Origin: a virus
Strand: one strand, 5' to 3'
DNA: 64,000 nucleotides
IMG/VR virus record: IMGVR_UViG_3300027857_000004
Location: 1-64,000 of that record
The notes under the pieces are model-generated. The model saw nothing but the letters and a program-made list of their open reading frames with translations, ran no database searches and was not told where the DNA came from. Shown here piece after piece: positions 21,801 through 58,319 of this stretch. Each line of letters opens with the position of its first letter. Positions within the stretch are counted from its first letter, which is position 1. The position numbers and the translations under genes were made by a program.

Positions 21801-23559
21801 AACGTTCAACCAGGACGGTTCGGTATGGCAGCCCACAAACAAAAAGCAGGATATCGTCACACTCGCCAGTGTCAACATTCCGACTGCCCAATTGAGTCAG
21901 GACGAAGTCCAGAAAGCATCTGCCCCCTACTCCGATTTGCTGAACAATCCGAATGTCAAACTCGGTGCGTTCAATTTCGAGCAGGCCGGTAAGCCAATGA
22001 CGAGTATCGATATCAACGCCATCGTGCCGCAAGCACACCGCGAGAATTCGCTCAAGTTCGCCAAGGACAACGACCAGATGGCGATTTTCGATATGGCGAA
22101 AAACGATGTGGTGAACACCGGCGGCGCCGGTAACACGAAGCTGACCACTCCGGCGCACATTGCCAAAGCTCTGCCCGCGCTACTCGCTGGAGAACCAGTT
22201 GATGTCGACCGGATTTTAGCTGCCCAACATCGCATAGCGTCGAACATTCCGGCTGGCAAAAAGCCTTTGCCTGTCAGTGACGACTTGTCGGTCAAGTCAG
22301 CTCTCGCGCAGACGACGATGGACAAGTTCACCACCGAAGTTGCGGACCGAATCAAAAGCAATCCAGGTTTTCGAGACATCAAAGGAACGTCTCCAGAGAA
22401 AGTCCTGCCGCAGATTGTGAATCGGATGGCTGAGAATATCCGTTTCCTTTTCGACAAAGCGACCGATGCGAACAAAAAACTGTGGAAGCAATGGTATGAC
22501 ATCGCGAACGATTTAAGCCATCGCCTGGGTGGCGAATTCGAGCTGCCCCACTTTGCTGTCGCCGGTATCAATGCCCGGCTCTCGCCGCAAAAAGATTGGT
22601 ATATGAACGTGACGCTGACTCGCAAGCTTCTTCAGACCGTTGCGGCGGACCCGGCGTGGAGCGAAAGCGACAAACTGTTCACGCGGTCAGTTCTGGAGAA
22701 CGCCGAAACAGCGCGCCGCAAAAAATTAGCCGATGACGGCGAAACTCCGACCCAGAAAAGTATCGATGCATTTAACGACCGCATTGCGAACGTGGAGAGC
22801 ATTCCGGAAGGAAAACGAGTAAGCGAAATGACGCCGGAGGATGCCGCTTACTTGATTCGCAGTCACAACGAACTGAAGGGCGACAAAATAATTGTCGACC
22901 ACAATTTCAAGCCGGTCAAGGGAGCGGGCAAACTGACGTGGCAGACATATGAGGCACTCTCTGATGCGTTGAAGATTCTGCGCAACCCGACTCTCGAAGA
23001 AATCAACACCCAGCTCGGGAGCAACCACAAGGTCAGAAGTTTTTATAACAATCACGTCGACCCGATGAACCCACAAGACGTGACTGTCGACACTCACGCC
23101 GTCGCAGCTTCGCACTTAATGCCCTACGGGAGCAAGAACAAACCTATCTTGGAGAACTTCGGAGCGGTCCGGCACAAAAACTCCGGCTACAACGGAAGCT
23201 ATTTCGTGACTGCCGATGCGTATCGGCAGGTTGCAAAAGAAGTTGGCTTACTCCCGCGCGAAGTTCAATCTATCGTGTGGGAACAAATGCGCAACACGCT
23301 GACACCGGCAGGAAAGCGGACACCTGGATTGGTGAAGCAGACCGACGCAATCTGGGCGAAAGCAGAGAAGGGAAAAATCACTCGCGACGAAGCACGCAAC
23401 CAGATTTACAGCCTTTTCGAAAAGGTCAGCGGTAACAAAGCGAGCAAAGGTCAAGCGGACTGGTATGACGAGTATCTGGCGAGCAAAGAGCAAGCGTTCG
23501 CAAAAGATTTCGAAGGTAAAGAAAGTCTAACACATGAAACTGCCGAACAGCCATTTTAG
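15889..23559 (+). CDS. Giant multidomain virion (polyvalent-type) protein
   Basis: 2556 residues. The N-terminus contains repeated TLTPDEIASA / QLTPEEIASA motifs. Residues about 550-590 contain HEARH (His569, Glu570, His573), a possible zinc-peptidase motif. Two homologous modules lie at about 1097-1184 and 1850-1924 (RDEGTGRVFEGPMH ... GEFLNREEAFERA and RDRETGKIYEGPMH ... GEFLNRREAFDRA). A segment at about 1247-1301 (GLVLHSAKQRSTVF ... VVESYF) recurs as a separate small gene at 38198. A histidine-phosphatase domain follows (RHG at 1317-1319, VTHYRG near 1460). The last 400 residues form another large helical domain. This is the pattern of polyvalent proteins injected with phage DNA. Confidence 0.7.
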   Translation: MADPITLTPDEIASATPITQPTAQPVQLTPEEIASAQPVNQANPVNPIRDFTPDQLVALQRQAPESFDIIQQFLSDPTAQKDPAVRRNAEQAYHQLRQEPWYHDLPTPAQMAGSVGTIVKGFGKQASNYAYAAAGAPALGIATATGAGDEQSRQELATEIQNKIATNWAGTETGLTGLISQIGKVVSATGRVLHINKQLADYTPEDKSAAFQDALTQAQQIQSAMKGQGPLMQAVGGNIVPSLNLKPEEVATAAAGDPFSWEAMGTGLGAAGKLTRAAIPEAARAAIQDVSQRAVDTLAKGVTIPAGAAISSFGKLAGMGIERAPGAAAAGAVLGATHALGLPGELSGFLAAGLKDIRSAPITRLGEAVGQAASEAPAFGRQITGAEPVTGAYAQLGRDIVKSIPTAVADIGKGAAFDLGLAATSDTPQEKQAVGLGTTLGILGGVAGAGKRALTGQLIAPREFTGNANYLPGTGTVPILEDLTRQTFPSMTPGQRVRFNATRDFLRGANPNADIFVSSGSDATAKALTDLGYSPDDAARLSSQGGVTTEINGHKVAIVNADSFDTAPHEARHAIENVMGEQALRQLDDEISSAYGTKNMDAIGRYYTSKIFQGRDPGANWQTPLLDITGEGERMAREKLIQQGVPDDQLKQQSSDWGNVLTPAEMQDAANRYVAREIAAENFSTWFSKMGGDVNAKQQVPEKLAQWTAAVMRTFGAEPLAGQVSPLGLPLSSKVIQRVGEQARELTRPSVEPAEEPATGAPRPPEKEARNAVELARTAPDVPVAGGTKSQREILGTVAEAIANRTGVKLNYLSAPEEPAAATTSNRPVRRQMIEIFRSMPESARKLWEKTFFPDKVTKSKKGYQIQGWAPEVFAANAHKLAGTIASTPEMAGLSPYEVDPATKSFTPEAWQQLYNDTSRFVANQQSGRTGSGVPLEVPPGMQEKGFFKPPLKPGAGSLDQRKADFISMLFNFKLPDTARLGGGKFPLNVAGQEVSKATIPGRIESPVIPRPEFTEGAVKKFPELQGRQILEVNPVRNEFENAALKANKPMPSFIESVQKLNLEHIKEAEHAPEASPEFRGNTLTLSAGFAPKTNEPRAVKMAAIRDEGTGRVFEGPMHASATLDWLRDKHADKIDEAGNLPPEVELDAWNSHPNVTEGFTTNNGEFLNREEAFERAQSFGQMPAAVDEPGASLESTAFEKHKKLISAFAPASREQMAEYERQRAAYEATPWWKRPPVGETETGRHTSYAGDPESGLVLHSAKQRSTVFVRPGNEANAFLSKWQQAPNQAAKDQVVESYFGPTGAQFAPDKKTFIVRHGSTEMNNSDPDKDLIRGHIDVPLDDKGRREAGEAAQNIADQGGVNHVIASDLGRTQETGQIIADKNGATMELDPGLRPWKFGPTIEGKPTAKMLPEIKRLTENPDERPPEGETFNEFKDRFLDAFHRAQENHADKNTAIVTHYRGTKLLDAWRATGTDNDTIDKAIFEKYDKDKTPGNVDVVDKAGAELAPEPEKQPAVDKAAELMRDANDDVSRQWASEAAAQFAAKKPVEGGRKSKQDWTLREGPGLFSKAWILPDGKPVQLGGQWHHEWLNENPNIAKKYGLKTTTSAEDNRSEALQKGFARVNYEKNTGTLKVEARAQDWQKIAPAIRQLAETNLRKIDNMDVHLLDSKAQRIVDSDGVALHTYDPGEKMDHLPMISEPTSTTTMSAQAPAEKAQFSPSKKEDKIRAVERYKQFWILNNGEIVPSPEGHMASARDVLPHETILEDRKTGVAGSLYDSMQNRGHLRGMLMEYPNKSIEIEGSVKVPVSRLAKESIEDISHALERPANINGKRLETGFPEEQGPGLVSNQFAPSDHPRAIRGAAVRDRETGKIYEGPMHFYALQRAEEAGATGIHDEGFMTNSGEFLNRREAFDRAKELDQLKTPETPQQAEALERAERFGALSEQVKGIQFAPPNQDELDKIKSGESFGQTFNQDGSVWQPTNKKQDIVTLASVNIPTAQLSQDEVQKASAPYSDLLNNPNVKLGAFNFEQAGKPMTSIDINAIVPQAHRENSLKFAKDNDQMAIFDMAKNDVVNTGGAGNTKLTTPAHIAKALPALLAGEPVDVDRILAAQHRIASNIPAGKKPLPVSDDLSVKSALAQTTMDKFTTEVADRIKSNPGFRDIKGTSPEKVLPQIVNRMAENIRFLFDKATDANKKLWKQWYDIANDLSHRLGGEFELPHFAVAGINARLSPQKDWYMNVTLTRKLLQTVAADPAWSESDKLFTRSVLENAETARRKKLADDGETPTQKSIDAFNDRIANVESIPEGKRVSEMTPEDAAYLIRSHNELKGDKIIVDHNFKPVKGAGKLTWQTYEALSDALKILRNPTLEEINTQLGSNHKVRSFYNNHVDPMNPQDVTVDTHAVAASHLMPYGSKNKPILENFGAVRHKNSGYNGSYFVTADAYRQVAKEVGLLPREVQSIVWEQMRNTLTPAGKRTPGLVKQTDAIWAKAEKGKITRDEARNQIYSLFEKVSGNKASKGQADWYDEYLASKEQAFAKDFEGKESLTHETAEQPF

Positions 23560-23771: not shown

Positions 23772-24506
23772 ATGCCAGATGCCCAATCTTTAGTCCAACC
23801 TTTAGCCGCACCGATGCCGCAGACCACTGGGGGTGCGCCAATACCCAACACCGCAGACGGCGCAGCTGGGGGCAGCCCTGCGCCGAATTCGGCCACTCCT
23901 GAAGGCCCAGCCATACCCAAGGAATTGGTGAAGCACCCAGCCTTCCAGGCACTGTTCTCCGGCGCGCCGCCCGCGCTATCCTATCACATTAAGGGGTTTG
24001 CCGACCGCGATGAGCGGGAGCTATTCTCTAAAAACAAAGCCTTTCTCCAAAAAGCCGGGATATCGGTTTACAAGTCAATCAGCGGAGATAGGGGCGTGAT
24101 ATTCAATGCTTTACATGTTCATCCGCAAGACCTGTATGCGGCTGACAAGATGGGAAAACTCGACCAGATTGCCCCCGACTTTGATGTCGTAAATCACGCG
24201 GTGGCGAAAAGCGGCATATCGAACCCGGTTCTGCGGGTTGGGCACGTCCCAGCGGCGCCACCGATGTCCAGGTCAGCCACTATAGCGCCCCAATCTGCGT
24301 CCCAGGATGCCCTAGCACAGCGCGTAATGGGCAACCAAGCTCCTGGGCCGGGGCAAACCCCTCCCGTGGCTCCTACGCTTCCTGCATCAGTTCAAAAGCG
24401 GCTTCTAGCAGAACGTTCTGCGAACCTAACGCCCGGGGCACCAACCGCGGGACAGGCGCCTGGGCAGGGCCGTCTGTTAAATTCGATTTTGAAACCGGTT
24501 CAGTGA
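23772..24506 (+). CDS. Pro/Ala-rich virion-region protein
   Basis: 244 residues. N- and C-terminal regions are Pro/Ala/Gln low-complexity. The central part (about 55-160) looks folded (HPAFQALFSGAPPALSYHIKGF ... NALHVHPQDLYAADKMGKLD). It has no signal or TM. It is the last gene of the left + block, and its final 134 bases overlap tail-to-tail with the C-terminal extension of an HNH-AP2 gene on the other strand. The function is unknown. Confidence 0.5.
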   Translation: MPDAQSLVQPLAAPMPQTTGGAPIPNTADGAAGGSPAPNSATPEGPAIPKELVKHPAFQALFSGAPPALSYHIKGFADRDERELFSKNKAFLQKAGISVYKSISGDRGVIFNALHVHPQDLYAADKMGKLDQIAPDFDVVNHAVAKSGISNPVLRVGHVPAAPPMSRSATIAPQSASQDALAQRVMGNQAPGPGQTPPVAPTLPASVQKRLLAERSANLTPGAPTAGQAPGQGRLLNSILKPVQ

Positions 24507-24957
24507 CCGGAAAGTTAAGAAGAGCAAACTGTCCGAAAAGCGCTAGGGCACGCTTGTCATACGCCTGGGCTGCCTCAATGGCCGTATCGAAGCAGCCGAT
24601 GTGTATTCGCTGTCGGTCTTTGCCGATAGTGGCATAGTATTTATTTCCTCGATTTGGCCGGAAATGAACGCCCTTGTATCCGCTTTTGTTACGCTTAGGC
24701 TTGCCTTTATTTGCTTGGTTTTGAGAGTTGGTGCAGTCTCTAAGGTTGTCCCGCTGATTGTTTAACCCATCGCCGTCCCAGTGGTCTGAAAATTCGTAAT
24801 CCGGATTAAGAAGTTTATGCAACGGAATGCTACTAACGGCATAAACTGTATTTTTGTCCTTCCGCTTCTTGGCTTGCCATTTGAATTTACTTAAAAATTC
24901 AAAATCGGCGTCATCGACTTTTGTAACGAATCCTTGCGTGAGTTTAATTTCTTTCAT
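24373..24957 (-). CDS. HNH-AP2 homing endonuclease (copy 1, last in - operon)
   Basis: 194 residues from ATG at 24957; a TTG three codons earlier is an alternative. The N-terminal signature is MKEIKLTQGFVTKVDDADFE, then an HNH core (DHWDGDGLNNQRDNLRDCTN) and an AP2-like DNA-binding domain (SGYKGVHFRPNRGNKYYATI ... AAQAYDKRALALFG). Other copies end near LLNFP; this one continues about 45 residues antisense to the convergent virion gene, so it seems to have lost its own stop. The extension is probably non-functional. The family is very recognisable. Confidence 0.88.
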   Translation of the reverse strand: MKEIKLTQGFVTKVDDADFEFLSKFKWQAKKRKDKNTVYAVSSIPLHKLLNPDYEFSDHWDGDGLNNQRDNLRDCTNSQNQANKGKPKRNKSGYKGVHFRPNRGNKYYATIGKDRQRIHIGCFDTAIEAAQAYDKRALALFGQFALLNFPVTEPVSKSNLTDGPAQAPVPRLVPRALGSQNVLLEAAFELMQEA

Positions 24958-24969
24958 TGTCTTCAATAG

Positions 24970-27407: not shown

Positions 27408-27881
27408 GCATTTTCCAAAGTTAAGGAGAGCGAATTCTTTGTGATACCGGACAGCCGCTAAATCGTAAGCCCTTGTTGCTTTTCTTTCATCTGCAAAATA
27501 TCCCAGATGATGCTGCTTTCCGTCGAATCGTATCAGAGCTTGCCACAAGGAATACCGGGCATACCAGCTAACCCCCTTGAACTTACTGGCGCAGTTTTTA
27601 AGCTTCCTTCTGTTTCGTGAGTTTTCGCCATGCGTTGCATTTCTAATGTTTTTGCGACGGTTATCAAGCCCGTTTAAATTTTCATGGTCTCCCTGCTCAT
27701 GCCGCTTCAATCCCAGGATTAGCCTATGCATGCGTATCGTGCCGACACCCGGTTGGCGCCGCAGCGCGTATTTGCGCCCGTCTTTCTTGGTCTCAATTTG
27801 CCACTTTCATTGGCTAAGCCATTCAAAATCACAATCATCAACCAAAGCAAACTGACCCTGCGTAAGTGGTATGCGCTTCAT
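27399..27881 (-). pseudogene. HNH-AP2 homing endonuclease with in-frame TGA (copy 2)
   Basis: The reading frame from ATG 27881 gives MKRIPLTQGQFALVDDCDFE, then WLSQ, then TGA (27807-27809), then KWQIE and onward with a complete HNH (DHENLNGLDNRRKNIRNATH) and AP2 domain (SKFKGVSWYARYSLWQALIR ... ATRAYDLAAV) to a stop at 27399. In the sister genes the stop position is Trp (QWKW/QWNW), so this is a one-base TGG-to-TGA nonsense change. Everything downstream remains open, meaning the lesion is recent or suppressed. The start overlaps the sigma stop (ATGA). Confidence 0.85.
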
Positions 27882-28561
27882 TCGGACAGTTCCTCCTTAA
27901 GTTTCGCAATTGCACGATTCCAGGTGACTCCAATCCAGGCGCGGCTGCAATTGAATTCTTCTCCTGCTTCCCGAAACGAAAAGCCAGTGTGCCGGATGAA
28001 AAGAATAACGGCGCGCTCAAACGGCGTAAGGCAGCCGATAACTTTTTCAATCGCTTCCCACTGTTCTTTCGCGTCAATCGCGCTGAAGTCAGGTTCAACT
28101 TTGCCTTCGATTTCTCCGCTTTCATCAACGCCTTCGATTTCTCTTTCTATTCCTCTCCGGCTAGCGGTGCGGTCTCTACCCTCTTCGATATATGCATCCC
28201 AGCTCGTGGTGTGCGCCTTTTTCACTGTCTCTAAGCCTCTCCAGTATTCGGTCAGCAAACCGCGGAGAGCTTTCTTGGCGAAATGAAAATACCTTCCATG
28301 TTTCGGGTCAAAGTTTCGAGCTGCCCGGTCAAGAGCTTTGTAGGACACGCTCACTAATTCACCATCTTCAACTTGGTGCTTGGACAGCTCTCGCAGATAC
28401 AACACTGCCTCCCGCAAGGAATGCTCAATCAGAAAATTAATCGCCTCTCGGTCTCCCTTGCGACGCTTGATTCGGCCTGCGTAATGGCGCTCTTGCTCGA
28501 CCGTCAGCGGCTCATCGAGAAGCTGTTTAAACACTATGCTTTCTTCGGTTGTGGTGCTCAT
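27878..28561 (-). CDS. Sigma-70-family RNA polymerase sigma factor
   Basis: 227 residues. Region 2-like sequence lies at about 38-110 (REAINFLIEHSLREAVLYLR ... VSVSYKALDRAARNFDPKHG, YFHFAKKALRGLLTEYWR). After an acidic linker a region 4 HTH lies at about 178-225 (LTPFERAVILFIRHTGFSFR, EAGEEFNCSRAWIGVTWNRA). This is the layout of a short sigma factor redirecting host RNA polymerase. It overlaps the primase-helicase stop by ATGA. It is a natural candidate to read the repeated CGACTRTTA sites, though nothing in the sequence proves it. Confidence 0.78.
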   Translation of the reverse strand: MSTTTEESIVFKQLLDEPLTVEQERHYAGRIKRRKGDREAINFLIEHSLREAVLYLRELSKHQVEDGELVSVSYKALDRAARNFDPKHGRYFHFAKKALRGLLTEYWRGLETVKKAHTTSWDAYIEEGRDRTASRRGIEREIEGVDESGEIEGKVEPDFSAIDAKEQWEAIEKVIGCLTPFERAVILFIRHTGFSFREAGEEFNCSRAWIGVTWNRAIAKLKEELSE

Positions 28562-30705
28562 GGTTGTGGTGGCTTAGAAAAGGTCCAGACTCTCGTCTTG
28601 CTGTTCGCATCAGTGCTGACTTCCGCTTTGACCGAATTCTCTTTCTGAAGTTGCTCTAAATACCGGTTAGACTGCTCCAACCGCAAGCTGCGGAGAATCG
28701 ATTCGTTGAGCGGGTTCGACATCAACAACCGGTTAATAGCAGAGACTGTGCCGGACCAAACGCTCTCGCTCGGATTTTCACGGAACCATTGCGCGAGAGA
28801 GTCGAGCAGAATTTCCTTAAAAGGCGCACTCGGGTTCGTCTGATTGCATTGTTCAAGCAGACTCGGCTCTTGAAAACTCACGAATCCGTATCGCGGGTCG
28901 CGTTCGATTTCGTCCGACACTTTCCAGTCGAGCAGCCATCGTGCGTAGTAGGGCAGCTCGGCGCGGATGAACCGGATTGTGTCTTCTCGATTCGGGAATT
29001 TAAATGCGCGCCCTTCGTTATCTGCGATGCAGCGGAAAAGATTAAGCTTATCGAGAGAGCTGTTGTCAAGCGGGCCGATAATTCGACTTGACTGAAAATC
29101 GAGATTTGCGGTGATGCCTAACCGGCCAACCCATTGAACCATACAAGGAACTTCGAACTTCTTATGAAATTCCCACTCCGAGTTGGCCGCAATTTTTTTG
29201 AACAGCATATGCGTCCGATTTGCAGTTGCGTAGCTCGAAGTAGGCGTGTCATCATCTAACACCATGTGAGGCACCGCTAACAACTGAGAATTAAATGTTC
29301 CGCCGTCGACCAAAAATCCGCTTGCATCCGCAAAACCCCCAACAAGAGTGCCTATGATTTGACGATTCACAAAAGTCTTACCGATGCCCACGCCTCCTTG
29401 CAACACAAGATTCTGTCCAGGCCGCGGCATCCACAGATAAGCGCTTTCGTAATAATATTTCAACCATGCGTTGAACCGGATAAGCTGCTCCGGAGGGTCA
29501 AACAGAGTCAAGAAAAAGGTAGAGATAAATGGAAAGTTTCCCACGCTTCCGAAAATCTGTGCCCCGATAGCGGGTTCAAGTGGCTTGCTATCGTAAATGT
29601 TGAGTGTCCGCTTGCCCTGGTATTCAATCAACCCGGGTCGCATAAAAACAAATGGCGCTGCTCCTACCACGCGCTGTTGGCAATGAATGTGGTCCAGAGC
29701 CCTGTCGACAGCTGAATGGCCCTGCCCATCCGGCTTAGCAGACATTCTGCAGGACACTTTCAAGTAATTTGTAAACTCTCCTCGCTCCGAGCTAGCCCAA
29801 CTCTCACCAATCTTTCGATGGTATCGGTGCCCATCAAAATAAATGTCCGAGGTTCCGGCTGCGACAGATTTTTCTGCAAACTCTGTGATGAATTCCTTGC
29901 CCAAAATCGATGCCCAATCATAAAACATCTTCGTCGCATGCGCCGAAAACGTCAGCATGCCTTCGGCTTTGACGATGGCTGAAAGCGGAGAAACTGATTC
30001 TGGAATAAAAAACGACGGCCCTTGGGAACCTTCCGCAAACTCTCCAGGCCAGTTGAAATTTGGGAATTTTTCTTTGATAGCCTTTTCCACCACATCGAGA
30101 CCTACATTCACCTGCGCCATTTCTTTGAAGCGGAAAGCTTGCGCTATCTTCACGAAGTGGGCCTGAAGCTTCGAAAAAGGCACCGGTCCATGCCCCGTAG
30201 CTTTCCAAATATCGCCTCGACAAAACAATCGGCTAGTCGTTGTCAGCGCGGGCAAGTCGAGAGCCGGAAGCAGATTTAGATTCAAAAATTTCTCGCACGA
30301 TTGAAGAAAGTAAACTCCAAAATCATTCCCGTCGACCAGCAATGGACGTTCTAAAATCCAGATGAGCCTTCGGTTTCCGCCAAGGGAGGTTTCCACCCAG
30401 GACGCTTTTACCGGCATACTTTCGAGAGCTTCATCAATGCGTGCATCGGGAATAGGAATGTCGTAATCGGCTACGATGGCATGAACCGCACGAACCGGAT
30501 TGTCTTTACCGCAGCGCACCCCCGCGTTTACGCCTTCGAGACCGCTATAGAAGCAGTGCCGGGTAGCCGGATTCTGATAAAAATTTTGACGCTCGTGCTT
30601 GTCTTTGCGTATCTGCTCCGTGATTTGTTCTGTGACTTGAAATTCCCAAGGCAGCCCAGGAACGACGGATTGAGTAACGAGATTCGGGGCAAAGAAAAAA
30701 TTCAT
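28558..30705 (-). CDS. Primase-helicase (PrimPol-like + SF3-like ATPase)
   Basis: 715 residues. The N-terminal 200 residues show a PrimPol-type pattern: IVADYD near 77-82, SLGGNRRLIWIL near 107-118 and a downstream CRGD. The C-terminal half holds an ATPase with Walker A GGVGIGKT (437-444) and an acidic strand (HMVLDDDTP) as Walker B, as in phage D5/SF3-like primase-helicases. Length and order resemble the NrS-1-type phage primase-polymerase, which is about 718 residues. It would prime and unwind for the family A polymerase encoded just upstream. Confidence 0.75.
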   Translation of the reverse strand: MNFFFAPNLVTQSVVPGLPWEFQVTEQITEQIRKDKHERQNFYQNPATRHCFYSGLEGVNAGVRCGKDNPVRAVHAIVADYDIPIPDARIDEALESMPVKASWVETSLGGNRRLIWILERPLLVDGNDFGVYFLQSCEKFLNLNLLPALDLPALTTTSRLFCRGDIWKATGHGPVPFSKLQAHFVKIAQAFRFKEMAQVNVGLDVVEKAIKEKFPNFNWPGEFAEGSQGPSFFIPESVSPLSAIVKAEGMLTFSAHATKMFYDWASILGKEFITEFAEKSVAAGTSDIYFDGHRYHRKIGESWASSERGEFTNYLKVSCRMSAKPDGQGHSAVDRALDHIHCQQRVVGAAPFVFMRPGLIEYQGKRTLNIYDSKPLEPAIGAQIFGSVGNFPFISTFFLTLFDPPEQLIRFNAWLKYYYESAYLWMPRPGQNLVLQGGVGIGKTFVNRQIIGTLVGGFADASGFLVDGGTFNSQLLAVPHMVLDDDTPTSSYATANRTHMLFKKIAANSEWEFHKKFEVPCMVQWVGRLGITANLDFQSSRIIGPLDNSSLDKLNLFRCIADNEGRAFKFPNREDTIRFIRAELPYYARWLLDWKVSDEIERDPRYGFVSFQEPSLLEQCNQTNPSAPFKEILLDSLAQWFRENPSESVWSGTVSAINRLLMSNPLNESILRSLRLEQSNRYLEQLQKENSVKAEVSTDANSKTRVWTFSKPPQP

Positions 30706-37489: not shown

Positions 37490-38189
37490 GCGTGATGAAA
37501 AAGTGAATACCACCGGAGCATTCAACACGCGGGTCCGGGTCAAAAGAAGCGGGCCTTACAACCTTCCCGACCACGTATTTAAACTCCGGGTCGTGGCTAC
37601 TTGCCCCGGCGCCCGAAATGACTTTCGCATACTCAGCGCGACACTTTCGGCCAATCAAACCGCCAACTCGCTTTGCCTTTGCCGGAATCTTGAGTTTGCA
37701 AATGCTTCCGCCTGAAAGTTTCTTCCAACCAATCAAATCGCCTTCCGGAACTATCGTTTTAATGAAAAGAATATGCTCCCAATTTGTCGCGCCGCTGAGG
37801 TCCGCGCCGCTGAGGTCCGCGCCGTAGAGGTCCGCGCCGTAGAGGTCCGCGCTGCGGAGGTCCACGCTGCGGAGGTCCGCGCTGCAGAGGTCCGCGCTGC
37901 GGAGGTTCGCGCCGTAGAGGTTCGCGCTACTGAGGTTCGCGCTAATGAGGTTCGCGCTACTGAGGTCCGCGCCGTAGAGGTCCGCGCCGCTGAGGTCCGC
38001 GCCGTAGAGGTCCGCGCTGCGGAGGTCCGCGCTGCGGAGGTCCGCGCTGCGGAGGTTCGCGCTGCGGAGGTTCGCGCCGTAGAGGTCCGCCGTCGATGCA
38101 ATAGCGGCAGCAACCGCACCACCGATTGTTTCGGCATCGGTCTCAAAGATTACTTTTTCGTCCCAACGATTTTTGATTTGAATTTTCAT
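37467..38189 (-). CDS. Pentapeptide-repeat protein
   Basis: 240 residues. After 33 residues (MKIQIKNRWDEKVIFETDAE) there are about 20 tandem A-(D/N)-L-x-x pentapeptides (ADLYG, ANLRS, ADLRS, ADLSG) to about residue 137, forming a predicted right-handed beta-helix. The C-terminal 100 residues (GWKKLSGGSICKLKIPAKAK ... DPEFKYVVGKVV) resemble the domain found after pentapeptides in phage proteins of the DUF5758 type. DNA-mimic gyrase inhibitors share the repeat fold, but no specific target can be read. The underlying DNA is a 15-bp tandem repeat. Confidence 0.85.
   Translation of the reverse strand: MKIQIKNRWDEKVIFETDAETIGGAVAAAIASTADLYGANLRSANLRSADLRSADLRSADLYGADLSGADLYGADLSSANLISANLSSANLYGANLRSADLCSADLRSVDLRSADLYGADLYGADLSGADLSGATNWEHILFIKTIVPEGDLIGWKKLSGGSICKLKIPAKAKRVGGLIGRKCRAEYAKVISGAGASSHDPEFKYVVGKVVRPASFDPDPRVECSGGIHFFITREEAEAY
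37793..38090 (-). repeat. 15-bp tandem DNA repeats coding pentapeptides
   Basis: About 20 units of a 15-bp sequence (plus-strand form GAGGTCCGCGCCGCT with variants) code for the A(D/N)Lxx repeats. Units differ at few positions, so slippage or unequal recombination could change repeat number. Other frames on both strands also stay open as a by-product. Confidence 0.85.
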
Positions 38190-39049: not shown

Positions 39050-40543
39050 TTAGTCTATTTGTAAGTTGTTGGGAATCAGGTCATTGTCGAGCAGCGCATC
39101 CAGATTATTCAGCTTCGCTGCGAGTGCTCTGCGCATCGGCACCTCGACCGATTTCGCCGCGAAAATCACCCGGTAATATGCAGCCGATTTGCCGCCATCG
39201 CGAGCAAGGCGACCGAATAACTGCCTCATCGCGGTTGCTGAGTCGGATGGAAACACGATACCCACTCTTGGAGAGTCGCCAGTTAAATCGTGAAGCGAAA
39301 GAGATTCCCGGCCAGCTTGATTGTTCACTATTAGCTCGCGGAATTTGTTGGCCTGAAAATCGTCCACAATCTGCTGGCGGTTTTTTGTGTTGTTCCCGTC
39401 GATTATGCGAGCGTTCGGAAATCGTTTAAACAGCTCATCAATTGTGGCGCGAAAATTCACGAAGAACGCGACCGAGTTTCCTTTTTCAATATAATCCTGG
39501 CCCAACTCAGCGGCTACCCCAATTTTCAAAAGTTCGATGAGCTGCCTTGCGCGTAGCCTTTTTGTCAAAGGCAATTCCGGGTTAATGTCTAGCGAAGCGC
39601 GTTCCTGCAGCTTCGAGTAAGAGTCCGCAATATCGGCATACAGCGCGTTGAGAGCTTCGGTGTCCTTGTCCGGCAGCGTGTATAGTTCAGCCGAAATATG
39701 CCGTTCGGGAAAATCGGGTATGTCTTTTTCTGAAAGTCTAACGCCGCGCATCTGAGTCCGAATGTCCGCCATGATAGCGAGCTGGTCGGCCTGGGACGCT
39801 TGCCATGCCCAGCCTCGCATGGGCACACGACGGCAGCCTTTTCGATAGGCCCAGTTATCGAAGTTGGCTAAGCCATGCAAGCCGAGAAGATAACCCAGCG
39901 CGCGCATCTGGAGTGGCGAGTTAGCAGGAGTGGCGGACAGCGCTAGCGTCATAATGCCTTGCCGTTTGGCGGCAATCATCATTTCCGCGTTTAAACTGTC
40001 ATTCGCGGCGCGATGACATTCGTCTAGGATGATAAACTTAACACCAGGATGAAACTGAAAGCGACCGTAACGGTGCGGGCGAACTTTAGTTTGAACGCAG
40101 TGCGTGCCAAACCTGTGGTGAGGGCAAGCCATGAATTTCTCCGCCTGCATTTCTACAACCCGCAGGCAAACGACGCATTGAAAAAATTCTCTTTGCGTCT
40201 TCGAAAGCGGTAAGCCCCCGCTCCACGAACCCAAACTTGTTCTCCCGCTGCGCAACATTTCCCAGCTGAGTATGGTGCAAGTGTCGCCGAAATGTGAAAA
40301 AGCTCTCTTCCATGACTCTACAGAAATCGCCGGAACAACTGCCAAAGTTGGCACGTTAAGATATACAGCCGCGGCTGCAGCTGTGTAACTTTTTCCCGCA
40401 CCAGTCGAACTTGTGTCAATAGCTGCCCCATGCTGTTTGAGAATTTCAATGAGCTGTTCAGCTGGCTTGATTTGCCAAGGCCGGAGTTTCTGGGAAATTT
40501 GGGCAGGCAAAAGCCCCCCAATATCGTTTAGCGGCGTCATCAT
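39050..40543 (-). CDS. SF2 DEAD/DEAH-type helicase
   Basis: 497 residues. Motif I is TSSTGAGKS (about 44-52), motif II LDECHRA (174-178), motif III LSATP (202-206). A C-terminal RecA fold shows VAFFVNFRATIDELF and motif VI MRQLFGRLARDGG. A Cys/His insertion (CVVCLRVV ... CPHHRFGTHC, 123-149) between motifs I and II looks like a zinc knuckle. Nucleic-acid unwinding in replication or repair is likely. Its first 86 bases overlap the 3' end of an HNH-AP2 gene. Confidence 0.85.
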   Translation of the reverse strand: MMTPLNDIGGLLPAQISQKLRPWQIKPAEQLIEILKQHGAAIDTSSTGAGKSYTAAAAAVYLNVPTLAVVPAISVESWKRAFSHFGDTCTILSWEMLRSGRTSLGSWSGGLPLSKTQREFFQCVVCLRVVEMQAEKFMACPHHRFGTHCVQTKVRPHRYGRFQFHPGVKFIILDECHRAANDSLNAEMMIAAKRQGIMTLALSATPANSPLQMRALGYLLGLHGLANFDNWAYRKGCRRVPMRGWAWQASQADQLAIMADIRTQMRGVRLSEKDIPDFPERHISAELYTLPDKDTEALNALYADIADSYSKLQERASLDINPELPLTKRLRARQLIELLKIGVAAELGQDYIEKGNSVAFFVNFRATIDELFKRFPNARIIDGNNTKNRQQIVDDFQANKFRELIVNNQAGRESLSLHDLTGDSPRVGIVFPSDSATAMRQLFGRLARDGGKSAAYYRVIFAAKSVEVPMRRALAAKLNNLDALLDNDLIPNNLQID

Positions 40544-40973
40544 AGGCTCGCGCTGCTTCCTCTTCTGAACAGAAGTATCCTACATCTATCCATTTGTAAT
40601 TTACCGTAATCCTAGAACGCCATTTATTGCAATTAGGCGCCCAGGAGACTCCTTTAAATCGGCTCGAAGTGGCACCCTTTTCTTTCCCTCTGTTCGCGCC
40701 GTTCTGAGCCGTGGTTGCTTTTCTAAGATTGTATCGCTGGTTGTTTAAACTGTTTCGGTCTTCGTGGTCGACCTTTACGCCAGAAGGAACCTGTAAAATC
40801 TCTCGGTGCATCTGGAACTGCAAGCTTCGTCCAAGTTCTGGAAAATATTCTCCTCGACACGCGTATAATCTTCCCCTGGAGTTACGCACTTGCCATTTCC
40901 ATTGCATCAGCCAATCGTAATCGGCGTCATCCACCAGCGCGACCTGACCCTGAGTTAAAGGAATTTCTTTCAT
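40458..40973 (-). CDS. HNH-AP2 homing endonuclease (copy 4, intact)
   Basis: 171 residues. N-terminal signature MKEIPLTQGQVALVDDADYD with QWKW, HNH core (VDHEDRNSLNNQRYNLRKAT) and AP2 domain (SSRFKGVSWAPNCNKWRSRI ... AARAYDDAAKRYWGA). It ends with a short extra tail (FPETPALANQAS) overlapping the helicase start. The start overlaps the Tat-protein stop as ATGA. Confidence 0.9.
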   Translation of the reverse strand: MKEIPLTQGQVALVDDADYDWLMQWKWQVRNSRGRLYACRGEYFPELGRSLQFQMHREILQVPSGVKVDHEDRNSLNNQRYNLRKATTAQNGANRGKEKGATSSRFKGVSWAPNCNKWRSRITVNYKWIDVGYFCSEEEAARAYDDAAKRYWGAFACPNFPETPALANQAS

Positions 40974-42490: not shown

Positions 42491-42961
42491 TTAGAAGTTG
42501 GTGACTGCAAACTCTCGATACATTTTGCGGGCAGCGGCATCGTAAGCCTTGGCCGCATCAACCTCGCTTGAAAAGCTGCCTAAATATAGGCGTTGCCCGT
42601 CTGCGTAAATGCGCGCCATCCACTGTTCCCGATAACTATGGACTCCCTTATACTGGCTTGAACACCCGCTTCGTTTCCTTCGGTTTCTGTTATTTTGCGA
42701 GAAAGTGGCTGGGCGCAAGTTGTGCCGTTGATTGTCTAACCCGTTTCTGTTTTGATGGTCCACTCGCGGGCACCCCGGAAGCAAAACGCTATGCATTCCA
42801 ATCGTGGTTTGCTTTCGCGTAATAGGGTCACGCGGCGACTTGCGAGAGGCATAGAACGTGTTGTCAGCCTTTATCGCATGCCAGTTCCACTGGCTCAGCC
42901 AATCAAAATCGGCATCGTCCACTAGGGCAAACTGACCTTGAGTGAGCGGAATCCGTTTCAT
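42491..42961 (-). CDS. HNH-AP2 homing endonuclease (copy 5, intact)
   Basis: 156 residues from ATG 42961; the frame continues upstream but other copies begin at this MKRIPLTQGQ. HNH core VDHQNRNGLDNQRHNLRPAT; AP2 domain SSQYKGVHSYREQWMARIYA ... AAKAYDAAARKMYREFA; end VTNF. Start and upstream stop overlap as ATGA (42958-42961). It is an intact, minimal form of the family. Confidence 0.9.
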   Translation of the reverse strand: MKRIPLTQGQFALVDDADFDWLSQWNWHAIKADNTFYASRKSPRDPITRKQTTIGMHSVLLPGCPRVDHQNRNGLDNQRHNLRPATFSQNNRNRRKRSGCSSQYKGVHSYREQWMARIYADGQRLYLGSFSSEVDAAKAYDAAARKMYREFAVTNF

Positions 42962-43131
42962 TGAACCCGAGGCACAATTGTTTTCTCGACGATTTTGCCA
43001 CCCTTCTCGTCCGCCTTGCGGCTGGTCTTGTCGTATTCGCCAGCGTTGCGGTTGCGTTCGAGTGGCCAATATTCCTGTGGGATAGCATCCGGCCTTGAAT
43101 CAGCCGGTGTGTTCTTCTTTGATTTCTTCAT
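42958..43131 (-). CDS. Small hydrophilic protein, 57 residues
   Basis: MKKSKKNTPADSRPDAIPQE, then YWPLERNRNAGEYDKTSRKA. It is very charged and basic at the N-terminus with no TM. Coding is supported by the exact ATGA junction with the HNH-AP2 gene downstream. The function is unknown. Confidence 0.5.
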   Translation of the reverse strand: MKKSKKNTPADSRPDAIPQEYWPLERNRNAGEYDKTSRKADEKGGKIVEKTIVPRVQ

Positions 43132-46847: not shown

Positions 46848-47492
46848 CTATGACAGAGTGGCAGACTGGACACAACTCGTTTCTGTGTATTTGCGAGAAG
46901 CCGCGAGAGACTCCTGGTTGTAGCGGTCAAGAAAGCGCTTCAGCTCGAAGTCCTGTGCCGCGACTAGCAACTCAAGCGCTGCAATTCGTTTCTCTAGCTT
47001 CTCAACTTCTTTGAGCACCAGGACATTTCTTGGGCGCCTTTCAGTCACCTCACCGGGCTTGTGCGGCGTCTCACTCAACAGCCCTTGTGATTGAAGAGAT
47101 TGCTGGATTTGGAGCAACACAGCGACAATCGCGGATTCGCTACTCAGGTCCGCTAGTGCGCGTTCTTTCGACAGGCACAAGCGAGGTTCCTCCATATAGC
47201 CGCGCTGACGAAAAGGCCAAAAGTAGACCACCAGCATGCCGGACAGCCGAATCGCCGAAGCGATATCGGACGACCTGAATTTGCCAAACAGTCGCTGTTT
47301 ACCGGCGAGATAAAGCGAGGGCCGGTAGTAAGGTGAGAGAAAAGACAAATTGCGGAGAGGCTCGGTCCCCAGCTGGACGCGTCGACACTTCGCCACCTCT
47401 TCGGGTGTCAGTTCGGTTGTGAATTTAATCGTGGCAAGAACGTTGCAAAGTGCCCACGTTTTCTGCTCCGGCGTGATTGCTAATGTATTCAT
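46848..47492 (-). CDS. First gene of the leftward operon, unknown
   Basis: 214 residues. MNTLAITPEQKTWALCNVLA, then a mostly helical protein with a possible coiled coil (LVLKEVEKLEKRIAALELLV) near 155-195. A CGACTGTTA site is 7 nt upstream of ATG, facing away from the palindromic control region, so this is the first gene of the - strand program. Position suggests an early gene. No family is recognised. Confidence 0.55.
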   Translation of the reverse strand: MNTLAITPEQKTWALCNVLATIKFTTELTPEEVAKCRRVQLGTEPLRNLSFLSPYYRPSLYLAGKQRLFGKFRSSDIASAIRLSGMLVVYFWPFRQRGYMEEPRLCLSKERALADLSSESAIVAVLLQIQQSLQSQGLLSETPHKPGEVTERRPRNVLVLKEVEKLEKRIAALELLVAAQDFELKRFLDRYNQESLAASRKYTETSCVQSATLS

Positions 47493-47497
47493 ACACG

Positions 47498-47506
47498 TAA
47501 CAGTCG
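47498..47506 (-). promoter_or_regulatory. CGACTGTTA start-site motif (leftward operon)
   Basis: Read leftward, AAACGACTGTTACGTGT precedes ATG 47492 with 7 nt from core to start. It lies 37 bases outside the left arm of the big inverted repeat. Confidence 0.68.
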
Positions 47507-47542
47507 TTTAAAAACAGACGAGCCGCTACAACTATTTTTAGC

Positions 47543-47731
47543 CAGCACGCCAGCACACCGGATGAGTATGGGTAGAGCTTACCCTTCCTATTAGGTAATT
47601 ATAGGACAGTTAATTCACTATTTATATACTATATTTAATATAATCACACGCGTTAATATAATAAATGTCCTAGAATAAGTTAATAGGAAGGGTAAGCTCT
47701 ACCCATACTCATCCGGTGTGCTGGCGTGCTG
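47543..47731. repeat. 51-bp perfect inverted repeat around AT-rich core
   Basis: 47543-47593 and 47681-47731 are exact reverse complements (51 bp each), separated by an AT-rich 87-base core that itself keeps partial complementarity (AGGACA). It sits between the divergent - and + operons and is flanked on both sides by CGACTGTTA motifs. Candidates are a replication origin, a DNA-binding control region or a terminator pair. Confidence 0.9.
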
Positions 47732-47789
47732 AGTAATAAGCTACCGGCGTGCGCCTGTTTTTCGTAATAGCGCTGCGCCCTCCGGCGAC

Positions 47790-47798
47790 CGACTGTTA
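47790..47798 (+). promoter_or_regulatory. CGACTGTTA start-site motif (rightward operon)
   Basis: GACCGACTGTTAATCA precedes GTG 47803 with 6 nt from core to start. It is the counterpart of the leftward site at 47498. Confidence 0.65.
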
Positions 47799-47802
47799 AT
47801 CA

Positions 47803-47976
47803 GTGAGCAAGAAAAAGCATCGTCCGCGGAAGAATCCGGACCCACTTTTCGACAACCAGCCGCAGTCGCTCCAGACCCTGAACAAAGTCGCGAAGCGCGG
47901 CATTCGGCTGCAAGAGCGTGCCCAGTGGTGGGCGCAAGCCCCAAATAATCCCGACTCGCCTACTTACACCGGATGA
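47803..47976 (+). CDS. Small basic protein, 57 residues (GTG start)
   Basis: From GTG 47803: SKKKHRPRKNPDPLFDNQPQ, then SLQTLNKVAKRGIRLQERAQ and WWAQAPNNPDSP. Its start is supported by the CGACTGTTA site and its TGA overlaps the next ATG (ATGA). It is basic and could contact DNA. It is the first gene of the rightward program; unknown function. Confidence 0.6.
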   Translation: MSKKKHRPRKNPDPLFDNQPQSLQTLNKVAKRGIRLQERAQWWAQAPNNPDSPTYTG

Positions 47977-48503
47977 GTGCAACGACTTTTATTTACGCCC
48001 TTAAAGAAGGTGGAATCGTTCGCTACATAGGCAAAGCCGATAACCCCGCGAAACGATTCAAGCAGCATCTTCGGAATGCGGCCAAAGGTCGAACATACAA
48101 GGACCGCTGGATTCAATCGATGCTGACTCGCAATGAGCCCGTTGTGCTCGATGTTTTGATGCGGATTCCGGTAGCAGAGTGGGACTGGTGGGAACGCGCT
48201 TACATTTCTATTTTCGGGTTAGTGTTTCCTTTAACTAATTCGACCGAGGGAGGCGATGGAGTTTCGGGAAAAGTTGTCTCGGATTCTAATAGAACGCGAA
48301 CATGGTCAACGAAAAGCCGGAATAAAATAAGCATTGGAAATAGAGGTAAAAAACGTTCGCCCGAAGCACGCGTACGGTATCGAGCTATAAAGAAATCACC
48401 TGCGCAACTAGCTGCGCTCGCTCTCGGTTCCGCGGCAAATCGAGGAAGGCAAAAGCTCCCTGATGGAAGCTGGGTCTACCCTAAAGATTTTCTTGGCCTA
48501 TGA
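47973..48503 (+). CDS. GIY-YIG homing endonuclease
   Basis: 176 residues. Core FIYALKEGGIVRYIGKADNP, RDRW-type tryptophan (KDRWIQSMLTRNEPVVLDVL), WWERAYI and LTNSTEGGDG. The C-terminus is more divergent than in other copies (NRGKKRSPEARVRYRAIKK as a NUMOD3 remnant). ATGA overlaps occur at both ends (upstream tiny gene, downstream small terminase). Confidence 0.92.
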   Translation: MSATTFIYALKEGGIVRYIGKADNPAKRFKQHLRNAAKGRTYKDRWIQSMLTRNEPVVLDVLMRIPVAEWDWWERAYISIFGLVFPLTNSTEGGDGVSGKVVSDSNRTRTWSTKSRNKISIGNRGKKRSPEARVRYRAIKKSPAQLAALALGSAANRGRQKLPDGSWVYPKDFLGL

Positions 48504-49147
48504 AAGAAAAGAAAACACGCTCAGAAAAAGTCATCGAGGCAGCGATGAAGAATCCAGTTTTTCAAGAAATGGATAAGAGCATCGCTGAAGTTGACGCGAC
48601 AGAAACACTGCCACCGGCTGATGTAGACCAGACGTTTGAACTGTTCTGCATTTTCATGGGCGACGTCGAGCGAACAGCATTGTCTGCTGGGCTGCCCCGT
48701 GAAAAGATTGTCGAATATTCAACACAATTTGGGTGGACCGAAAAGATAAAAGTTCTCGTGGACATGCGGCTTTCTTCTAAGCCGGGCGACTCGGAGAGAG
48801 GCGTGAACCGTGCAATTAATTTTTTGCAGGCCCACAGATTACGCAACGTTTTGCAAGGTGTGCTGAAGAAGTTGACTACGATGTCATCGAGCGACCTGTC
48901 TGATTTGTTGTTCGCGACCGAGGTAGACCGCAAAGGAATCGTCACGCGCAAGATTGTCACGCGATGCTTTGCTGACCTTGCTTCGGCCTTAGAGAAAACA
49001 CACTCGATGACATACCAAGCGCTAGCGGACACGGTCGGAGACCGAAAGGCCCGAGAAGATTCTGACCCAACCGAACACAAAACAACCGCGGAGCTTCATA
49101 TTGCCTTGACTAAGGCAATGGCGGAGGCTCGCACACCAACACAATGA
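48500..49147 (+). CDS. Putative terminase small subunit
   Basis: 215 residues. An acidic N-terminus leads to a region about 45-90 (TFELFCIFMGDVERTALSAG, LPREKIVEYSTQFGWTEKI) with an HTH-like layout, then helices typical of oligomerising small terminases (GVNRAINFLQAHRLRNVLQG, VLKKLTTM). The large terminase lies 10 kb downstream in the same direction. The family is inferred from this pattern and position; no diagnostic catalytic motif exists for small subunits. Confidence 0.55.
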   Translation: MKEKKTRSEKVIEAAMKNPVFQEMDKSIAEVDATETLPPADVDQTFELFCIFMGDVERTALSAGLPREKIVEYSTQFGWTEKIKVLVDMRLSSKPGDSERGVNRAINFLQAHRLRNVLQGVLKKLTTMSSSDLSDLLFATEVDRKGIVTRKIVTRCFADLASALEKTHSMTYQALADTVGDRKAREDSDPTEHKTTAELHIALTKAMAEARTPTQ

Positions 49148-54889: not shown

Positions 54890-56224
54890 ATGGAAAATTT
54901 TGATACACTCAGCGCGTCCGTTTCGGGCGCAGACGGCAGCGAACAGGTTAACCTTACGTGGACGAATGTCGTCCCGGGGTTTCCGCCCATTGTGGCGTTC
55001 GGTGTTCAGAGAAAACGGTTTGGCCGCGGCGACGATGACTGGACTACTCTCGTCAGCGCTTTGACTCCGGTGGTCGTTCCGGTTCCTCCGGCGAGCGGTC
55101 CCGGGCCTGCTGGTCTTGCGCCAGCGCTTGGTTTGGCCAGCACCTTCGAGGTTCTCGCCGCCACCACTATCACCAACACCGGGCCAACCGTTGTAAACGG
55201 TGACTTGGGCATGAGCCCCGGCTCTGCCGTGACTGGATTTCCTCCCGGGGTAATCACCGGCTCAGTTCAGATTGGCACTACTCTCGCCACGAACGCGCAG
55301 ACCGATTTGACCACCGCTTACAATAACCTGACCGCGCGTGGTCCCGGCACCGTCGTCGGCACCACTGACTTGGGAGGCAGCACGCTGACCCCCGGCGTCT
55401 ACTCTTCGGCATCTACCATGCTGATTTCTTCGGGCGACTTGATTCTGGACGGCCAAGGCAATCCCGGTGCGGTGTTCGTTTTCATCGTCGGTTCAGCTCT
55501 CACCGTTGTCACCCCTCGCAAGGTGGTCCTGATTAACGGCGCGCAAGCTGTGAACGTTTTCTGGGCTGTCGGCAGCTCCGCCACAATCGGAGTCAGCTCG
55601 GTTCTCCAGGGCTCAATTTTGGCGGTGACTTCCATCACGCTCAACACTGGTGCCACCGTAGTGGGCCGGTTACTGGCCCAGAATGGCGCCGTCACTCTCG
55701 ATTCTAATCCGGCTACGCTTCCGGTTCTTGCTGCACCTGCTCCCGAAGGAGTAGCGATTCCGGTGCCCACGCCGTTTGCATTCACCGATTCTCCGGCAGA
55801 AGGCGACTGGACATATCGTCTGCGGGCTGTTTTGACGCAAGGCGGCACGAACAATCTCGGCACGTTCATTTACTCGAACAGTGTCAACGTGACCACCGAG
55901 GCAACCACCGGCGAGGTGACCTTGACATTGTCTGCTTCGCCTGACGGTGATTTGCCCGCTTACACTCGGGTGACTCTGAACTGGGTCATCGACGGGGACG
56001 CTGTTGACGTGCGGCGATATGAGGTGCAGCGAACACTCGACCGCGGCGCCACCTGGAAGACCGTGCATCAGCAAGATGAGTTTTCGAGCTTGAGCTATGC
56101 CGAGGTGCTTCCTCCGGCTCTCGGCGATGTTTTCTACCGGGTCATTGCGGACTTGCCTTCGGCCACGCCCCCGTATCAGACGGACGTGCAGAGCATTTCC
56201 AACAGTGTGACGGTTCGCACATAG
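54890..56224 (+). CDS. Virion-region protein with ice-binding-like domain
   Basis: 444 residues. Residues about 80-278 (GLASTFEVLAATTITNTGPT, VVNGDLGMSPGSAVTGFPPG, TDLTTAYNNLTARGPGT, GVYSSASTMLISSGDLILDG, GAVFVFIVGSALTV, VNVFWAVGSSATIGVSSVLQ, GSILAVTSITLNTGATVVGR) match the DUF3494 right-handed beta-helix ice-binding fold. It is flanked by Fn3-like sequence on both sides (VQRKRFGRGDDDWTTLVSAL before, TYRLRAVLTQ after). A second Fn3-like module lies near 335-440. It sits in a virion neighbourhood and may be a surface adhesin; ice binding is unproven. Confidence 0.75.
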   Translation: MENFDTLSASVSGADGSEQVNLTWTNVVPGFPPIVAFGVQRKRFGRGDDDWTTLVSALTPVVVPVPPASGPGPAGLAPALGLASTFEVLAATTITNTGPTVVNGDLGMSPGSAVTGFPPGVITGSVQIGTTLATNAQTDLTTAYNNLTARGPGTVVGTTDLGGSTLTPGVYSSASTMLISSGDLILDGQGNPGAVFVFIVGSALTVVTPRKVVLINGAQAVNVFWAVGSSATIGVSSVLQGSILAVTSITLNTGATVVGRLLAQNGAVTLDSNPATLPVLAAPAPEGVAIPVPTPFAFTDSPAEGDWTYRLRAVLTQGGTNNLGTFIYSNSVNVTTEATTGEVTLTLSASPDGDLPAYTRVTLNWVIDGDAVDVRRYEVQRTLDRGATWKTVHQQDEFSSLSYAEVLPPALGDVFYRVIADLPSATPPYQTDVQSISNSVTVRT

Positions 56225-57132: not shown

Positions 57133-57543
57133 ATGAATGACGTGGTTGTGGCAGCGGTCGTGGGGCTCTTTCTGCTGAAGTGGGCCGTAATAATCGGTTT
57201 TTTTCTCTGGCTCGCCAACGGGGTAGGCAACATTTTTAAAGCCGCCTCGGTAGTCGCTAATGGGCAGCTCGTCATCAATCCTCCGGCGCCCGCCCGCGAC
57301 CCGGGTATGCTTCAAATTGAAGCCCAGGCCAAATCGAACTGGATTGACTCACACCCGCAGCACCCTAGCAACCCGCAGCATGCGGAATACGTGGCCGAAG
57401 AACTAGCGAGGCGAAAGGCTTACGAACGTCGGTTAGTATGGAAAGCCCCGGCGCCCCCTACGCCTTTTGCAGCGAAAGCCGCTGCTTGCTTTTTCGTGCC
57501 GGTTTTGGTCGGTCTTGTTATTGCCATCGTGCGCGCACAATGA
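57133..57543 (+). CDS. Membrane protein, two predicted spans
   Basis: 136 residues. N-terminal span (VVVAAVVGLFLLKWAVIIGF) and C-terminal span (AAKAAACFFVPVLVGLVIAI), joined by a hydrophilic middle (DPGMLQIEAQAKSNWIDSHP). Possible holin or lysis-associated protein, but sequence gives no more. The stop overlaps the recombinase start (ATGA). Confidence 0.5.
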   Translation: MNDVVVAAVVGLFLLKWAVIIGFFLWLANGVGNIFKAASVVANGQLVINPPAPARDPGMLQIEAQAKSNWIDSHPQHPSNPQHAEYVAEELARRKAYERRLVWKAPAPPTPFAAKAAACFFVPVLVGLVIAIVRAQ

Positions 57544-58319
57544 ACGCCTACTCTTACATTCGAGTCAGTTCAATCGGGCAAGTCGATGGCGACGGTCCCG
57601 ACCGGCAGCGCGATGCGATTCGTGCGTTCTGCGCCAAGTTCGCTATCGAGCACCAGGGAGAGTTTCTCGAAGCGATTACCGGCAAGACTGAGGCTGTCGA
57701 CCGGCCAAAGTTCGTTGAGCTTCTGTCCAGTATTGACCGTTTAAACGGAGTCGCTGACGCGCTTCCTGAGATTGGCTACAACGTCCCTCTCAAGCGGCTG
57801 AAAATCGATTGCATCATTGTCGAACGCATGGACCGGCTGGCGCGTGACCTGATTGCCTCCGAGTTGCTACTGCGAGAATGCCGCGAGCGGGGTATCCAGG
57901 TTTTCGCAGCCGACCAGGGACAGGTCGTAGACATGGCGTGCAACACGGGCGACCCTACCCAGACGCTTATGCGGCAAATTCTCGCTGCGATTGCGCAGTG
58001 GGAGAAGAGTGTGCTGGTTCTCAAGATGGCGACCGCGAAGTCCAGAATCCGCAAGGAATTGGGCAAGTGCGAAGGTCAAAAACAATTCGGCGAGAAGATG
58101 GGCGAGCGGGAAGTCTTGCGCCAGATGCGCGAATTAGCCGAGGTTCACAAGCTGAAGTATTCGGAAATCGCGAAAGAGCTGACGCGCCGGGGAATTTTCA
58201 AACGGAACGGGAAAGAATGGAGTCGCAATTCGGTGTATGACATGCTGAAGCGGCGCGACACGGTGAAACCTATTTTCGCTGTGACGTTGGAGCGGATAAC
58301 ACCTGAGACTAAAAACTGA
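57540..58319 (+). CDS. Serine recombinase (resolvase/invertase type)
   Basis: 259 residues from ATG 57540. The catalytic region is YSYIRVSSIGQ (Ser10), then QRDAIRAFCAKF, IDCIIVERMDRLARDLI and ADQGQVVDMACNTGDPTQTL, characteristic of the N-terminal resolvase fold. The C-terminal part has HTH-like helices (EVHKLKYSEIAKELTRRGIF, KRNGKEWSRNSVYDMLKRRD). Could act in integration, inversion or dimer resolution. It lies inside the packaging cluster. Confidence 0.82.
   Translation: MNAYSYIRVSSIGQVDGDGPDRQRDAIRAFCAKFAIEHQGEFLEAITGKTEAVDRPKFVELLSSIDRLNGVADALPEIGYNVPLKRLKIDCIIVERMDRLARDLIASELLLRECRERGIQVFAADQGQVVDMACNTGDPTQTLMRQILAAIAQWEKSVLVLKMATAKSRIRKELGKCEGQKQFGEKMGEREVLRQMRELAEVHKLKYSEIAKELTRRGIFKRNGKEWSRNSVYDMLKRRDTVKPIFAVTLERITPETKN

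Follow-up and report, generated by a model that had tools for sequence, protein, structure and literature searches.

The window analysed here, a stretch of 64,000 nucleotides, covers positions 1 to 64,000 of IMG/VR virus record IMGVR_UViG_3300027857_000004, which comprises 72,597 bp. The ends of the record overlap by 127 bp, and the record was accordingly taken to represent a closed map of about 72.47 kb. The leftward genes include those for polymerase A, a helicase, exonucleases, a RuvC-like protein (resolvase) and a 715-aa primase-helicase-like protein; the rightward genes encode a TerS-like protein, TerL (assigned by Walker motifs in a protein alignment and weak matches to annotated large terminases) and structural proteins. 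A non-coding gap, which reaches from the start of a leftward gene at 47492 to the start of a rightward gene at 47803, lies between the divergent leftward (replication) and rightward (packaging and structural) programs and contains a long inverted repeat. The locus comprises the following features, together with a candidate helicase encoded further to the left.

28558..30705, minus strand: 715-aa protein with primase-helicase-like motifs read from an alignment, candidate initiator helicase
46848..47492, minus strand: putative AP2-like DNA-binding protein with a C-terminal coiled coil (family alignment, AF2 model, HH comparison)
47498..47506, minus strand: CGACTGTTA element, leftward promoter-like motif (TAGCG-N~17-CGACTGTTA-N4-6-start)
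47543..47593: left arm, 51 bp that pair without mismatch with 47681-47731
47594..47612: inner extension of the left arm, imperfect, pairs with 47662-47680
47613..47661: asymmetric AT-rich core, 18% GC, AT maximum of the genome
47662..47680: inner extension of the right arm, imperfect, pairs with 47594-47612
47681..47731: right arm, 51 bp that pair without mismatch with 47543-47593
47790..47798, plus strand: CGACTGTTA element, rightward promoter-like motif (same TAGCG-N~17-CGACTGTTA-N4-6-start pattern)
47803..47976, plus strand: first rightward gene, 57 aa, with a short x-LF-x motif also present in the equivalent small ORFs of relatives
47973..48503, plus strand: GIY-YIG homing endonuclease (PF01541, E=2e-5; phrog_314)
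48500..49147, plus strand: TerS-like protein with HTH, long helices and a beta hairpin; marks the control region by synteny

The initial annotation had described a perfect 51-bp inverted repeat at the point where the two gene programs diverge. This repeat is real, with an exact match at 51 of 51 positions, and it sits at the divergence point, in the gap that separates the leftward gene (47492) from the rightward one (47803). The AGGACA on both sides and the AT-rich core mentioned there were also found, the core being the AT-richest 100 bp of the whole 72.6-kb record, and there is indeed one CGACTGTTA site for each direction, at 47498-47506 (-) and 47790-47798 (+). The weaker pairing said to continue into an 87-base core does exist; however, it is part of the same repeat, and thus the unpaired core measures about 49 bp. 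With mismatches allowed, imperfect arms of 70-78 bp surround a core of 49-87 bp, the match being 93% for 47543-47612/47662-47731 and 90% for 47535-47612/47662-47739. The ungapped inverted-repeat score was 55, whereas 20 dinucleotide shuffles gave at most 10, and a scan of the 72.6 kb yielded no second inverted repeat above a score of 16. Folding of the repeat region as single-stranded DNA gave a z value of -16. Matches of the repeat to Rfam miRNA precursors stayed far below the gathering scores and merely reflect the hairpin. A 13-mer of the palindrome arm, ACACCGGATGAGT, was found again at 47966-47978, where the GIY-YIG endonuclease gene begins; this is a marginal observation, as shuffled arms also reach 13.

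The motif TAGCG-N~17-CGACTGTTA-N4-6-start codon precedes about 11 genes in the window (5384, 12222, 23759, 36937(-), 47498(-), 47790, 51909, 54614, 56783, 58790 and 61863). With so short a distance between this promoter-like motif and the start codon, leaderless mRNAs may result. Positions 27878-28561 encode an ECF/sigma-70 region 4-like protein. When sequence outside the arms was searched for composite motifs, the search settled on a coding motif in the small first gene rather than on a promoter. The GIY-YIG endonuclease gene next to this small gene is probably an insertion. Database searches with the 715-aa protein gave no match, and its Walker A motif was found by alignment in two of four relatives. 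The window further encodes a small serine recombinase (57438-58319; matches in 12 of 13 relatives compared, the exception being the G2 fragment), an ice-binding-like domain (54890-56224; PF11999, E=1.3e-60) and, beside the structural genes, a 2556-aa protein (15889-23559) with a histidine-phosphatase domain (PF00300, E=3e-30) and DUF7178.

The protein encoded at 46848-47492, which adjoins the repeat on the left, had no Pfam hit, and its whole chain matched no PDB fold significantly. Its AF2 model (pLDDT 85) displayed three strands and a helix, followed by a coiled coil. An HH comparison of its domain profile with AP2 resulted in P=1.1e-5 and a probability of 82%, compared to 0.1-0.5% for controls, and the matched AP2 domains include HNH-AP2 paralogues of the same genome. 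These results are suggestive of an AP2-like protein without being proof of it. Small AP2-domain paralogues are encoded at 40458-40973, 42491-43069 and 24373-24966, two of them with HNH motifs (homing-endonuclease-like). The profile did not recognise an AP2-like protein in the L270-L287 and L279-L282 groups. On the right, the AF2 layout of the 215-aa TerS-like protein fits small terminases. Many of the BFVD structures nearest to it are named small terminase, with weak E values of at least 2e-3, and the top PDB hit of the model was an SPP1-like small terminase with a weak E value of 0.49.

Named phage records contained only very distant relatives (polymerase at about 24% identity, partial matches of TerL and none of the 715-aa protein), and no sequenced isolate is a close relative of the phage family. 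In phage records, no direct homologue of the control region was found, and an exact 30-mer was absent from the viral contigs searched. Neither single-protein scans with a 214-aa protein and the helicase nor genome-contig scans with the recombinase and TerL yielded relatives. Close relatives were found by alignment-based scans with the polymerase, TerL (69 loci) and the TerS-like protein (64 loci). Gene order was conserved among them, and the control region always had the leftward gene (where recognised, an AP2-like one) on one side and the rightward TerS-like gene on the other. Ungapped inverted repeats (score of at least 13, spacer up to 260 bp) were present in 42 of 60 syntenic control regions, and four more were significant when gaps were allowed. 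Dereplication left 30 distinct repeats, the arms of which measured 16-91 bp and the spacers 44-146 bp; the median arm identity was 90%, and the GC content was 0.45 in the arms versus 0.30 in the cores.

We scanned 13 complete or near-complete contigs, including ours. The repeat at the divergence point ranked first in nine and second in one of them, and the remaining three lacked any repeat of that score. Elsewhere in these contigs (about 0.94 Mb), only three repeats with a score of at least 16 were detected. The AT maximum of the genome coincided with the repeat in our record (G0) and in G1, G3, G009, G010, G013, G014, G015 and G016. Some relatives showed no significant repeat at the equivalent place (G001/L261, L240, L256, L265, L266, L268, L289 and L290). 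At that place in L291 (4705-4750), we observed instead a near-perfect palindrome with 22-bp arms and a 2-base loop. The initial annotation had reasoned that so long a palindrome is hard to keep unless selected or recently made, and the answer is that its symmetry is kept at the same syntenic place in most relatives. Syntenic phages without the palindrome, which had been named as the observation that would speak against it, do exist (e.g., G001/L261); however, they are a minority.

The sequence of the arms behaved differently from their symmetry. Arms of different phages could not be aligned with each other, and no k-mers were common to them above shuffles except for the 8-mer AGTCAACC in three related phages. 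In seven genomes tested, all complete or near-complete, the arm sequence was not found at any other place. This uniqueness points to a function at a single site and argues against operators of a regulon. Among near-identical phages, the repeat block was unchanged although its surroundings differ by 1-6%; L284 and L286 have 277 differences in 4909 bp, none of them inside the repeat. Between L283 and L284, the TerS-like proteins are 97.6% and the leftward proteins 75% identical, and the nucleotide identity rightward of the repeat is 92%. Both phages have the outer part GGAAGTCAACCAACT in common in both arms, and the outer AGTCAACC part is kept. Their inner arms are unrelated, and each pair is nevertheless symmetric. 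Thus, position and symmetry are conserved, while the sequence is not. Mismatches between the arms amounted to 5-9% in the outer half and 11-20% in the inner part, going down to 7% at the loop, and the repeat persists among TerS-like proteins of 30-45% identity. That symmetry rather than sequence was kept suggests a master control site, for example, the start point of genome copying. The arms may have evolved by block exchange together with arm-to-arm copying. Fold-back template switching is a documented mutational process that homogenises the arms of inverted repeats (PMC8604942).

The tests spoke against several candidates. A telomere-like element, one of the functions initially suggested, is at odds with the circular map with its 127-bp overlap, the scattered contig ends and the unpaired spacer of 49-87 bp; the spacers of 44-146 bp in the family likewise speak against hairpin telomeres of the TelN/tos type. 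The suggested regulatory binding array was weakened as far as multiple sites are concerned, since the arms are unique in the seven genomes, but it survives in the form of a local control site. Antitermination leaders of the nut/put type are unlikely because internal dyads in single arms did not exceed chance (mean p 0.64) and the repeat has no outward promoter bias. A cos site with fixed ends found no support, as contigs do not break at the repeat. Of the earlier candidates, an origin is left, and so is a local control site acting in both directions.

We propose that the repeat is a single-copy, family-wide control element and most likely the origin of genome replication, placed between divergent leftward and rightward promoters; we assign this reading a probability of about 45%. 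An origin fits best because there is one such locus per genome, with inverted arms, an AT-rich spacer, an adjacent putative DNA-binding protein, replication proteins encoded by the phage itself and symmetry without sequence conservation. An iteron array was not found in the arms, where direct repeats reached p<0.05 in just 4 of the 30 elements (mean p of 0.49). The sole long tandem array of the window lies in a pentapeptide-repeat gene; about 20 copies of a 15-bp repeat at 37788-38090 code for a pentapeptide-repeat protein with a DUF5758 tail. The GC skew analysis recommended in the initial annotation gave an origin-like picture in this genome but not a consistent one in its relatives. Skew extremes were located at the repeat in G0, G1 and G016 and 2.7-14 kb away in other relatives, and the sign was reversed in G012 and G014; skew is also confounded with gene strand. 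Due to this inconsistency, skew was left unused as origin evidence.

We infer protein binding, unwinding, hairpin formation, replication start and arm homogenisation at the repeat, as follows. A dimeric DNA-binding protein would sit on both inverted arms; the best candidate is the adjacent AP2-like coiled-coil protein. The bound protein would strain the AT-rich spacer until it melts, and the arms could then fold into hairpins. At the melted spacer, the primase-helicase-like protein and the polymerase A of the phage would load. Fold-back template switching during replication, made possible by the pairing of one arm with the other, would keep the two identical, while their sequence may drift or be swapped blockwise between phages. 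More tentatively, the family may represent a class of phage origin or control elements in which the dyad symmetry itself is inherited and selected and the arms are re-templated by fold-back copying, giving each phage a private palindrome at the same place. In the literature searched, no such phage element was described. If the repeat is an origin, it locates the replication start for a whole family of phages of about 70-75 kb without close cultured relatives. The roughly 30 natural replicates of the palindrome, with sequence exchanged and symmetry kept, would make the maintenance of long inverted repeats directly testable.

The features around the repeat would also suit a purely regulatory region without an origin, in which divergent promoters share an inverted upstream copy and the AP2-like protein acts as the common switch for the leftward early and the rightward late operon. 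Promoter-like motifs flank the repeat on both sides, a regulator-like gene adjoins it, and an outward TTGACT (-35-like) is present within the outer, conserved part of the arm in L283, L284 and L276. However, near-perfect arms of 51-91 bp far exceed the need of two binding sites, and the repeat showed no outward promoter preference (outward 5.43 versus inward 5.56, p=0.59). Moreover, the arm sequence occurs nowhere else in the seven genomes tested, and the inner arms of L283/L284 were wholly replaced but symmetric while the leftward protein is still 75% identical. We regard this explanation as less probable than an origin but as a serious rival to it. The repeat might instead be a site of packaging initiation (pac) or a cos site to which the protein encoded downstream binds; packaging sites often adjoin terS, and the first conserved rightward gene is TerS-like by sequence pattern and fold. 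We consider such a site improbable, while still counting pac among the serious rivals: near-complete contigs assemble through the repeat and end at scattered map positions, so that no fixed cos end is visible there, the self-closure of G0 by the 127-bp overlap is far from the repeat, and the TerS-like proteins of L283/L284 are 97.6% identical despite different inner arms.

Symmetry without sequence conservation could also be a functionless by-product, generated when replication or transcription stalls at an AT-rich non-coding spot and fold-back template switching becomes frequent. Fold-back homogenisation is a known mutational process (PMC8604942), and the repeat is missing in some relatives. 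No such repeat is seen at further intergenic or AT-rich places in these genomes, however, and both the unchanged block in relatives with 1-6% divergence around it and its persistence across TerS-like proteins of 30-45% identity make a mere by-product quite improbable. The asymmetric core enclosed by the inverted repeat and the small serine recombinase, matched in 12 of 13 relatives compared, are reminiscent of a site-specific invertible switch. This is very unlikely since seven sets of near-identical phages, drawn from different records, all lacked an inverted core; in addition, the spacer is very short and the arms vary totally, whereas a recombinase site should be recognisable. Within a single genome, the repeat has the terminal-inverted-repeat look of a small mobile (MITE-like) element inserted in the intergenic region. 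It is present as a single copy, however, 30 phages have unrelated sequence at the same site, and no target-site duplication was apparent by eye, leaving hardly any room for this explanation.

The proposed origin was compared to known systems. Lambda-type immunity and early control regions contain OL/OR and nutL/nutR. The phage repeat resembles them in having mirror-image elements that flank a divergent early control region and vary between related phages, but it lacks outward promoters from the core and RNA-hairpin potential in single arms, and its arms are far more identical. N15-type telomere sites (tos) are likewise long perfect palindromic sequences in a phage; the present repeat differs from them by its unpaired spacer of about 44-146 bp and the circular map, and no telomerase-like protein was found among the proteins scanned. 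Origins of the phage P4 or plasmid type use primase-helicase initiators. A phage-encoded primase-helicase-like protein and one special non-coding AT-rich locus are shared with these origins; however, the element is a long inverted repeat and not an iteron array. In herpes simplex virus (HSV), oriL sits between divergent genes. HSV OriS combines inverted boxes and an AT-rich spacer with a dimeric origin-binding protein (OBP, UL9), and a hairpin forms in the unwound origin (PMC12543377). The HSV boxes are short and conserved, in contrast to the phage arms of 16-91 bp that differ from phage to phage, and the HSV initiator is an SF2 helicase, whereas the candidate binder of the phage is AP2-like. 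The phage repeat shares inverted arms, an AT-rich spacer and hairpin capacity with HSV oriS/oriL, at one locus per genome, its binder and origin role being putative. If it does serve as an origin, the phage origin would be built like that of a herpesvirus.
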